This document shows, piece by piece, positions 18,990-52,477 of a DNA stretch of 64,000 bases. The translations under genes and the position numbers were made by a program. The first letter of the stretch is position 1; each line of letters begins with the position of its first letter. The DNA lies in contig NZ_CP166961.1 in assembly GCF_041410465.1 (NCBI RefSeq), positions 992,001 through 1,056,000 on the forward strand. Reading direction: 5' to 3'. The notes below the pieces were generated by a model. It was not told the DNA's origin and ran no database searches. It worked only from the letters and a program-made list of their open reading frames with translations. Source of the stretch: Thalassotalea sp. 273M-4 (GTDB lineage Bacteria; Pseudomonadota; Gammaproteobacteria; Enterobacterales; Alteromonadaceae).

Positions 18990-19453
18990 CCAATCAAATC
19001 TCAAGATTTATCAATTCTTTAAAGACAATAATTGACTCTTTAATTCTTTTAGATGAGTTTGTCAGGGGAATTGATATAACAGCAACCGTAGTTAAAATCT
19101 CAAACGGTTACTAATATTTACTTATTAATGATAGAAAAGGGACATGTCATTTTGAGTAAGGAAACTTTACCTCATCACTTTGCACTTATGATAGTCATAA
19201 CCTTATTTACTAAAACTATTCAACACACTAGTTGCTATCCAAATAATATTTAATAAATTCTTAACCATGGCTTAGATTTAGAAATTAAAGAATTCTCTAG
19301 TAAAGTATAAGTGCTTATCTAGATAATAACGTTGGCTGATTTAAAGGATTTAATAAATATAAATCAGTCACTAGAAATGTACGTCTTAGCTTTTAAGCTA
19401 AGGTGTACAAATTTGAACACAACAAACATAATCGATATACGAAGATTATGTTT
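18990..19453. other. AT-rich gap between thyA and the GG-leader peptide gene
   Basis: No supported gene. A 41-codon reading frame at 19128-19253 (starting MIEKGHVILSKET) has an AAAAGGGA-like sequence inside it but no recognisable features. Base composition is clearly more AT-rich than in thyA, consistent with acquired DNA. Confidence 0.4.
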
Positions 19454-19657
19454 ATGAAAGAATTAAACCTCGATGAAGTACAAGCTGTTACTGGTGGGAT
19501 TTCTCAAGAAGGGGCTATAGGAACTAATATAAGCATTGTTGGAATTGGTGTCGCAATTGCTGTTGCAGGGTCAGCACCGGCTTGGTTTCCAATTACAATG
19601 ATCGGATTAAGCATTGTAACAACCAGTACTTATATATATAAAAGCCTTGCTTACTAA
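19454..19657 (+). CDS. Double-glycine-leader bacteriocin-like peptide (singleton)
   Basis: A 67-residue precursor from the ATG at 19454, preceded by GAAG at 9 bases; an ATG at 19448 is the alternative. The first 15 residues, MKELNLDEVQAVTGG, form a double-glycine leader of the kind cut by the C39 peptidase domain of bacteriocin ABC exporters. The 52-residue core is hydrophobic, Gly/Ala/Ile-rich (GIGVAIAVAGSA) and cysteine-free, with two potential membrane helices around a PAWFP kink. This fits an unmodified class II microcin or bacteriocin. No exporter is nearby; similar leaders occur at 51745 and 51911. A hairpin and a tiny membrane peptide gene follow. Activity and target are unknown. Confidence 0.68.
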   Translation: MKELNLDEVQAVTGGISQEGAIGTNISIVGIGVAIAVAGSAPAWFPITMIGLSIVTTSTYIYKSLAY

Positions 19658-19707: not shown

Positions 19708-19836
19708 ATGAAACATGAAAACTGGCGGAAACAGGGGCATTCAGCCTGGAAACGTAATAAAAACGCTAATTATTATCTCTTCACTATAAGTCTTACTATC
19801 GCCATTGGGATTTCTATTTGTCTTATTTTATTTTAA
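19708..19836 (+). CDS. 42-residue membrane peptide, possible immunity protein
   Basis: The ATG at 19708 opens 42 codons. A basic, Trp/His-containing N-terminus (MKHENWRKQGHSAWKRNKN) precedes one membrane helix (about residues 22-42, ending ISICLILF). TAGGAT at 8 bases before the start is an acceptable ribosome-binding site. It lies 50 bases after the double-glycine peptide gene. A single-helix basic peptide next to a bacteriocin gene could give self-immunity, but this is inference from position and shape only. Confidence 0.45.
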   Translation: MKHENWRKQGHSAWKRNKNANYYLFTISLTIAIGISICLILF

Positions 19837-45607: not shown

Positions 45608-45694
45608 GCCGGAGTGGTGGAATTGGTAGACACGACGGATTCAAAATCCGTTGCCTTTGCGGGCGTGCCGGTTCAAGTCCGGCTTCCGGTACCA
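45608..45694 (+). tRNA. tRNA-Leu (anticodon CAA)
   Basis: An 87-nt class II tRNA starting GCCGGAGTGGTGGAATTGG and ending in an encoded CCA. The anticodon stem ACGGA/TCCGT encloses the loop TTCAAAA with anticodon CAA. A long variable arm (TTGCCTTTGCGGGC) follows, and the T arm is GCCGG-TTCAAGT-CCGGC. It reads UUG codons. Its last 56 bases are repeated exactly at 51275-51330. Confidence 0.96.
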
Positions 45695-45699
45695 TAATT

Positions 45700-45726
45700 A
45701 ACCTGCTGATTTTAAGCAGGTTTTTT
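45700..45726 (+). terminator. Terminator of tRNA-Leu
   Basis: AACCTGCT-gatttta-AGCAGGTTTTTT, starting 6 bases after the tRNA. Confidence 0.85.
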
Positions 45727-50187: not shown

Positions 50188-50562
50188 ATGTCGGCTGTTA
50201 TCCGTCTTTTGCTTGTCAGCAAACATTTAGCGGCTATTCACGATGATATTAGTAACATAACAATGAGATATGACTCATTAGTAGGTGATATGGGAGCGAA
50301 CTTATCAGGTGGACAAGTGCAACGGTTATTAGTGGCTCGAGCCTTGTACCAATCTCCTTGTGTCTTGTTTATGGATGAAGCAACAAGCCATTTAGATAAA
50401 GATAATGAAATTAAGATCAGTGAACAGATTCAGCATTTACCAATGACTCGAATTATAATTGCCCACCGCCAAGAAACCATCAATATGGCGGAGCGGGTTT
50501 ACTATTTAGAAAATGGTAGGCTAACAAATTTGAACGATATATGCTCCAAAACTGCTAGCTGA
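50188..50562 (+). pseudogene. Truncated bacteriocin-type ABC exporter (C-terminal ATPase remnant)
   Basis: The 124-residue frame contains only the end of an ABC ATPase. From about residue 14 it matches the peptidase-containing bacteriocin exporter type: LAAIHDDISNI, YDSLVGDMGANLSGGQVQRLLVARAL (signature motif), CVLFMDEATSHLD (Walker B) and IIIAHR (H loop). The C39 peptidase domain, membrane domain and Walker A are all missing, and the first 13 residues (MSAVIRLLLVSKH) do not fit, so the break is at about 50215. It cannot work alone. It lies 1.2 kb before two double-glycine peptide genes, which it may once have served. Confidence 0.8.
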
Positions 50563-51274: not shown

Positions 51275-51330
51275 ATTCAAAATCCGTTGCCTTTGCGGGC
51301 GTGCCGGTTCAAGTCCGGCTTCCGGTACCA
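51275..51330 (+). repeat. Duplicated 3' end of tRNA-Leu (putative right attachment site)
   Basis: These 56 bases are identical to 45639-45694, the anticodon loop to CCA end of tRNA-Leu(CAA). Upstream, a short TTGCCGG matches the tRNA 5' end but the D arm and 5' anticodon stem are missing, so it is not a functional tRNA. It is followed by its own terminator. Exact 3' tRNA duplication is the hallmark of site-specific integration by a tyrosine recombinase; the segment between the copies is 5.6 kb. No integrase gene is visible inside it. Confidence 0.85.
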
Positions 51331-51335
51331 TGATT

Positions 51336-51363
51336 AAAACCTAGCTATTGCTAGGTTTTTTTG
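51336..51363 (+). terminator. Terminator after the tRNA-Leu fragment
   Basis: AAAACCTAGC-tatt-GCTAGGTTTTTTT. Its position matches that of the terminator after the intact tRNA, but the stem sequence differs. Confidence 0.85.
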
Positions 51364-51744
51364 TTTTTGACGTTCCAAAAATATCACTTACACATTTCTA
51401 GGAATTTTTCGCAAGGCGTTATTTGGCGAAAACCTATTTTTTATTTCTCTTAAATACTTTTTTAAAAGCTAAATTTAATAGCTTATTTCACTTTAAAGAA
51501 GAGCTGGGGCAAATGTTAATGAAACGCATCTGTCATCTCCCCCTTGTCTGACTTTCGATATATCACCCTTAATATAGTTTGAATATTTTGTTATTAAAAA
51601 GAGTTAGTAGGTTTATATTCTCAATACTATGATGTATTAAAGCTACTTTATCTACTGGGTGTTCTTATAAATTCATTTCAGTGCTTCGATTTTGTAGCTT
51701 ATTTAACGTTGTTATTTAGACGACATGGAAAAGGAGGCCTCTTT
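51364..51744. other. Leader region of the GG-peptide operon
   Basis: About 380 bases of AT-rich DNA with no supported gene. It should hold the promoter for the two peptide genes. AAGGAGG at 51731-51737 is the strong ribosome-binding site of the first peptide. Confidence 0.4.
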
Positions 51745-51909
51745 ATGAGAGAGCTAAATAAACAGGAAGTAAGTCTTATTAGTGGTGGAATAGTTGTATT
51801 GATACCACCTGTTCTAACATTCGCCGTTAAAGTATTTGGCATGGGAATAGGTGTCATTAGTGGTTCTTTAGCAACATATTCAGCTTATTTGACGATTAAG
51901 GAAAGGTAA
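51745..51909 (+). CDS. Double-glycine-leader bacteriocin-like peptide A
   Basis: A 54-residue precursor from the ATG at 51745, with AAGGAGG seven bases upstream. An in-frame ATG/TTG further up lies before the ribosome-binding site and is rejected. Leader MRELNKQEVSLISGG (15 residues) has the L, E, V/I and GG positions recognised by C39 peptidase exporters. The 39-residue core is hydrophobic with a glycine-rich stretch (FGMGIGVISGS) and a polar tail (TIKER), and lacks cysteine. One base separates it from peptide B, so the two are probably made together as a two-peptide pair. Confidence 0.75.
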   Translation: MRELNKQEVSLISGGIVVLIPPVLTFAVKVFGMGIGVISGSLATYSAYLTIKER

Positions 51910-51910
51910 T

Positions 51911-52093
51911 ATGAGAGAGTTAACAAAGAATGAAATTAACGACGTCAATGGTGGCATATCGAGTACCACAGTTAAAGCGGGTGTTAAACTGTTAGGCGGT
52001 GCTTTGCTAAGAGGTATAGCCATAGGAAGTGGTATTGGCGTATTTATAGGGGTAGGCATGATTGCTTACGATGTATACCAAGTAATGGACTAA
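51911..52093 (+). CDS. Double-glycine-leader bacteriocin-like peptide B
   Basis: A 60-residue precursor. Leader MRELTKNEINDVNGG is nearly the same as that of peptide A. The 45-residue core has an amphipathic basic start (TTVKAGVKLLGGALLRG) and a strongly glycine-rich helix (IAIGSGIGVFIGVGM) with overlapping GxxxG motifs, which in class IIb bacteriocins pair the two peptides in the membrane; it ends AYDVYQVMD. No cysteines. AAGGAAAGG at the end of gene A is the ribosome-binding site. A terminator follows directly. Confidence 0.75.
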   Translation: MRELTKNEINDVNGGISSTTVKAGVKLLGGALLRGIAIGSGIGVFIGVGMIAYDVYQVMD

Positions 52094-52098
52094 GTAGT

Positions 52099-52127
52099 AA
52101 AAGGTAGGTTATTTACCTACCTTTTTT
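52099..52127 (+). terminator. Terminator after the peptide pair
   Basis: AAAAGGTAGGT-tattt-ACCTACCTTTTTT, directly after peptide B and 15 bases before the next gene. The downstream membrane gene would therefore be read through only partly, or have its own promoter. Confidence 0.85.
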
Positions 52128-52141
52128 CGGGAAGTGGAACA

Positions 52142-52477
52142 ATGGACGTTTTGTTTGAAAAACCTTATACCGTTTCTTTATCATTGATTTATTTGATCCT
52201 AGGGGTGTATTTATTAGCCTTAAAGATCGAACCCTTTTTGCTTTTAATCGCTTTTCTGCTTATTTTGAGCTCGTTGTTTTTTTTATGTTCGGTATTGAAA
52301 TCGAAAAAAGATTTTTACAAAATCGGACAGTATCTTATATTCCTCGTTTTTTTGGTGTTTTATCTAATCGTGGTATTGGAAATTCCGTGGGGTTATCATC
52401 TCGCTTATATTTTGAGTTTTCTCATGTGTCATCAAACCCTAAATACATTGTTGGTAATTGAGTTTGATGAACGTTGA
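52142..52477 (+). CDS. Four-helix membrane protein, possible immunity protein
   Basis: A 111-residue protein with four predicted membrane helices (about residues 11-28, 30-50, 63-80 and 83-103) and short loops. I do not recognise a family. The size, topology and place after two bacteriocin-like genes resemble known immunity proteins, though the terminator between them weakens the link. Start ATG after GGGAAGTGGA. Confidence 0.55.
   Translation: MDVLFEKPYTVSLSLIYLILGVYLLALKIEPFLLLIAFLLILSSLFFLCSVLKSKKDFYKIGQYLIFLVFLVFYLIVVLEIPWGYHLAYILSFLMCHQTLNTLLVIEFDER

Follow-up and report, generated by a model that had tools for sequence, protein, structure and literature searches.

Class II microcins, as summarized in passages of PMC9746304, comprise a precursor with an N-terminal signal ending in GG (double glycine) or GA, an immunity protein, a C39 exporter, an adaptor and TolC; the immunity proteins are of 51-216 amino acids (aa), are encoded near the peptide and are usually membrane-spanning. 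Cdz of Caulobacter crescentus (CdzC/CdzD/CdzI) is presented in parts of PMC5380434 as a glycine-zipper toxin made of two proteins, which has type I secretion and a small membrane immunity protein. Here we describe two adjacent GG-leader precursor genes, A and B, and the open reading frame (ORF) behind them, ORF3, in a 64,000-nucleotide stretch of Thalassotalea sp. 273M-4 (C1:992001-1056000 of a single-contig genome of 3.37 Mb), the whole of which is referred to as the window. On sequence grounds, A-B-ORF3 probably specifies a class II bacteriocin of two unmodified peptides, with leaders of the colicin V type, export in trans and an immunity protein. The support comes from the shared leader consensus, the unrelated glycine-zipper cores, a conserved membrane-protein neighbour, relatives in exporter operons, and the presence of one C39 exporter with its adaptor. 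In the family to which Glaciecola and Rheinheimera belong, the locus offers a probable two-peptide bacteriocin, with its candidate immunity gene, that is open to experimental testing.

Precursor peptides and the candidate immunity gene

The original prediction had placed two precursor genes one base apart, with unrelated, hydrophobic, cysteine-free cores of 39 and 45 residues, and both statements were borne out (Table 1). GRAVY (grand average of hydropathy) is 1.23 for the A core and 1.08 for the B core, with net charges of +2 and +1; there is no detectable relationship between the cores, and the possibility that they are duplicates of each other was rejected. The overlapping GxxxG motifs predicted for B were found as GxxxGxxxGxxxG, and tandem GxxxG motifs are present in both cores. 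The 15-residue leaders, however, had been called almost identical; they share one consensus, MREL-x-x-x-E-(V/I)-x-x-(I/V)-x-GG, but agree at only 8 of 15 positions. Neither gene has lost its frame, start site or glycine motifs. ORFs starting with ATG and carrying the strict leader pattern numbered three in the window, compared with none in 60 Markov copies. The absence of cysteine from both cores suggests that A and B are unmodified, no genome-wide search for modifying enzymes having been made. AlphaFold predicted a single long helix for each precursor (mean pLDDT 72.4 for A and 63.7 for B; pTM 0.39 and 0.25), which agrees with the mechanism proposed below yet proves nothing, the confidence being low to moderate and too weak a basis for fold searches. 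Scores against established families fell under their cut-offs: A reached 16.7 bits with Pfam Bacteriocin_IIc (cut-off 27.1), B reached 17.7 bits with Pfam MccV (cut-off 27; A had no match at E 1), and the two precursors reached 11.8 and 12.7 bits with TIGR03949 (cut-off 21.5).

Table 1. Coordinates of the A-B-ORF3 locus and of other features in the window
Feature	Position	Strand	Details
Precursor peptide A, 54 aa	51745-51909	+	leader 51745-51789; core 51790-51906 (39 aa)
Precursor peptide B, 60 aa	51911-52093	+	leader 51911-51955; core 51956-52090 (45 aa) with GxxxGxxxGxxxG
ORF3, hydrophobic 111-aa membrane protein, candidate immunity protein	52142-52477	+	
Ribosome-binding-site-like AGGAGG ahead of A	51732-51737	+	sequence
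Terminator-like hairpin then T run, between B and ORF3	52099-52127	+	-14.9 kcal/mol, z -2.34, 6/200 shuffles equally stable
CvaB-type exporter relic	50188-50562	+	50224-50559 corresponds to the 112 C-terminal residues of a CvaB
tRNA-Leu(CAA), probable integration site	45608-45694	+	
att-like 63-nt copy of tRNA-Leu(CAA) 3' end and adjoining bases	51275-51337	+	98% identical to 45639-45701
Third GG-leader peptide, separate locus	19448-19657	+	leader MKELNLDEVQAVTGG

No Pfam or NCBIfam model matched ORF3 at E 1. By simple hydropathy it has two clear membrane segments and its Glaciecola counterpart has four. Its size, position and hydropathy match the description of class II microcin immunity proteins, and ORF3 is a candidate for the membrane immunity protein of the pair. 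The hairpin between B and ORF3 was absent from the list produced by a consensus scan; given this hairpin, ORF3 may need read-through or its own start. Promoter-like sites were no commoner than in shuffles (8 versus a mean of 10.2), and no promoter is claimed; an Rfam scan gave no match bearing on the pair. GG peptides are known to serve communication besides competition (PMC7018657), and A and B could in principle be pheromones, signalling peptides sensed by the population. We regard this as highly improbable, because the cores are long and membrane-like, the adjoining membrane ORF has the size and position of an immunity gene, and none of the four full flanking genes searched in Pfam is a regulator.

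A closer competitor is a contact-dependent toxin pair of the Cdz kind. In that case the cores would form glycine-zipper aggregates that stay on the producer's surface and kill only by touch, and ORF3 would be the counterpart of CdzI, an immunity protein of the inner membrane. This overlaps with the bacteriocin reading, and it is for the mode of action only that we consider it unlikely, if worth keeping in view. Judged by eye, both cores fit the published pattern of a leader ending in G[GAS], a glycine zipper, flanking charge or proline and a charged or polar C-terminus, and passages of PMC5380434 give such systems a wide gamma-proteobacterial spread, with 14% having two adjacent proteins. Against this, the length range is 60-151 residues, which B (60) just reaches but A (54) misses; Cdz-like systems have their type I secretion genes within about 10 kb, and at that distance from the pair in the window a relic was found but no full exporter; and aggregation and contact dependence are invisible in sequence.

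Relatives of the cassette and of its leaders

A second genus carries A-B-ORF3 as well: Glaciecola sp. KUL10 has the three genes in the same order, with both cores conserved. Rheinheimera soli has a CvaA/CvaB-type system whose adaptor and C39-exporter genes flank a relative of A and a peptide of weak likeness to B. The likeness to two-peptide class II bacteriocins or microcins that had been proposed from the sequence is supported by this recurrence, and since the cassette recurs in a related bacterium the bacteriocin set is probably real. The pair is adjacent in Glaciecola and less firmly so in R. soli, and genome G146 has a lone, broken B relative, with an in-frame stop, inside an exporter operon (L154:9014-9184, minus strand). 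A candidate remnant of A in G146 was rejected, none being recognisable. These arrangements indicate that A and B are inherited together, with R. soli the weaker case. A is without some C-terminal residues that are present in its relatives.

Profile searches of 395 genomes gave few matches. The A profile (2 rows) matched three genomes at E<=1e-5, two of which were its own rows; the B profile (3 rows) matched five at the same threshold, which were its own three rows, G146 and G057 (5.6e-6); and the ORF3 profile (2 rows) matched only its own two rows at E<=1e-10, with G225 at 1.4e-5. Weak matches for A and B (E ~1e-4 to 1), among them other GG peptides matched in the leader only and glycine-rich parts of long proteins, were not counted as homologues. 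Nothing was found with B alone as query against genome contigs, in a plasmid search with A and B, or in a phage search with B only (A was not run). A relative of ORF3 occurs without the companion genes in a third genome, in the manner of orphan immunity genes.

Among 92 distinct precursors from 52 loci, mean pairwise identity was 0.55 in the leaders, a value inflated by the search pattern, which itself fixes some leader positions, and 0.19 in the cores (0.17 for shuffled cores). The expectation that leaders would be conserved and cores variable was supported, but not the expectation that the genes would always be paired, as an adjacent peptide pair was present in just 13 of the 43 peptide-bearing loci. 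Unmodified pairs of this sort had been said to be rarely described in marine Alteromonadales; among the loci sampled from relatives, precursors of this leader type are common and diverse, not rare, and similar leaders precede many differing cores, often beside C39-type exporters.

Several further GG peptides were seen. The core of the third peptide of the window (Table 1) is strongly conserved in R. soli (L113) and in G057 (L066), and downstream of it lies an ORF of 42 aa (19708-19836) that has a single membrane segment. The genome also has a second peptide pair at C1:3231381-3231693 (L064:9382-9694, minus strand), whose frames overlap by 8 nt and downstream of which lie two membrane ORFs (105 and 123 aa); a relationship between ORF3 and the membrane ORF beside this pair was rejected (Z -0.2). 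Another pair, shared by two genomes (L065:3332-3643, minus strand; L127:9925-10267, plus strand), adjoins CvaA/CvaB-like genes in both, and its second peptide has a glycine-zipper core. At L126:9573-11225 (plus strand), about eleven tandem GG-leader ORFs lie immediately 3' of an exporter gene; several have near-identical short polar cores, in contrast to the hydrophobic cores elsewhere.

Exporter genes and the integration site

One C39 peptidase domain was found in the genome, within a 729-aa exporter encoded at C1:1239854, ~196 kb from the pair. Its catalytic residues Cys27, His100 and Asp116 are intact, with spacings of 73 and 16 that match those given for CvaB in a passage of PMC9746304. 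The exporter gene overlaps by one base the gene for a HlyD-type adaptor, which matches TIGR01843 at E 6.7e-39 with 134 bits, under the curated cut-off of 208.65. Two genes for TolC-type outer membrane proteins score above the PF02321 cut-off, an assignment that holds at the family level only. Thus, at the level of the whole genome, the GG signal, the C39 exporter with Cys/His/Asp, the membrane fusion protein and the TolC-type protein of class II microcins are all present. A leader-pattern search of 20 kb around the C39 exporter found no GG peptide. Adjoining this exporter is a gene for a low-complexity GKCGEG-repeat protein with a signal-peptide-like start (L002:12197-12670, plus strand).

From these components we infer export, leader cleavage, core pairing, synergy, killing and immunity as follows. 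The distant C39 exporter would bind both leaders and cleave after GG, and the adaptor and a TolC-like channel would give the cores their way out of the cell. The two hydrophobic helices would pair by their GxxxG faces within a related competitor's membrane and permeabilise it, while the producer would be guarded by ORF3 in its inner membrane.

Upstream of the pair is a relic of a CvaB-type exporter gene (Table 1), 87.5% identical to the exporter of the multi-peptide cluster L069 and 61% identical to the genome's own exporter. Queried with exporter proteins from the sampled loci, the 45-54 kb part showed no other exporter remnant, and a tblastn search of the whole window with the genome's own exporter gave no credible match besides the relic. 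The relic DNA stretch matches exporter genes in congeners, and in G139, G210, G178, G115 and G261 the matching stretch is accompanied by GG peptides. Together, the relic and these matches suggest that a local exporter was probably once there and is now lost. That only the 3' end of the exporter gene survives, together with the att-like repeat and the hotspot rearrangements, could also mean that the pair itself is a decaying remnant of a cvaA-peptide-cvaB operon whose product is no longer made, as might the missing C-terminal residues of A and the broken B relative of G146. We think this improbable: the reading frames, starts and glycine motifs of A and B are intact, the genome retains C39 exporter, adaptor and TolC-family genes, and Glaciecola preserves the cassette too, with no exporter match in the surrounding 20 kb examined.

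The att-like copy lies 5.6 kb downstream of tRNA-Leu(CAA), and the A-B pair is placed just past it, ahead of msrA. Between the tRNA and msrA, the congener G115 likewise has an att-like copy, and with it a phage-type integrase (Phage_integrase E 1.4e-16) and other cargo; this interval behaves like an integration hotspot, one that is shared with G115. Acquired DNA also recalls the nap island, for which passages of PMC11798529 describe several GG peptides that have an immunity-like gene with them, lack antimicrobial activity and bring about stationary-phase autolysis. By analogy, A and B might act on the producer in regulated self-lysis instead of attack, but this seems very unlikely, given that Naps are cationic, with a pI of 9-10, and the A and B cores are only +2 and +1 and more hydrophobic.

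For the probable bacteriocin, a broader arrangement can be proposed, tentatively and with considerable doubt. One stand-alone C39 exporter may serve at least five scattered GG-peptide genes (A, B, the 19448 peptide and, near 3.23 Mb, the two of the second pair). Peptide-plus-immunity cassettes could then be swapped via the tRNA-Leu hotspot without bringing their exporter along; some would be obligate two-peptide glycine-zipper toxins, possibly surface-held. If true, a cassette that does without an exporter of its own and relies on a shared one would illustrate how bacteria can trade peptide weapons.

Comparison with known systems

Searches of open-licence PMC papers for bacteriocins or microcins of Alteromonas, Alteromonadaceae, Pseudoalteromonas, Glaciecola or Rheinheimera gave no title or abstract opening that reports such a pair, nor is one described in passages of PMC10456417 and PMC8339730. 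The peptide family may already figure among the taxa of the Cdz-like list of PMC5380434. Like the nap island of Neisseria gonorrhoeae, as passages of PMC11798529 present it, the locus has several GG peptides and an immunity-like gene on acquired DNA, but nap encodes three peptides, which are cationic and reportedly favour lysis of the cell that makes them. With Cdz it shares a two-peptide glycine-zipper set, predicted type I secretion, a small membrane protein and a Gram-negative host; the peptides here are shorter and the exporter is not adjacent. Class IIb two-peptide bacteriocins (lactobin A / cerein 7B family, TIGR03949) likewise have adjacent, unrelated, unmodified GG peptides with GxxxG in both, followed by a membrane protein, whereas this host is Gram-negative, with an adaptor and an outer-membrane channel, and both TIGR03949 and Bacteriocin_IIc are under cut-off. 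The class II microcins (microcin V / colicin V) resemble it in the GG-leader precursors, the C39-peptidase ABC exporter with HlyD-type adaptor and the small membrane protein by the peptide genes, but differ from it in that here two precursors lie side by side, their cores are short (39 and 45 aa), the exporter is elsewhere in the genome and Pfam MccV is under cut-off. The pair belongs to an already known general kind and, as A-B-ORF3, is a new instance of it.
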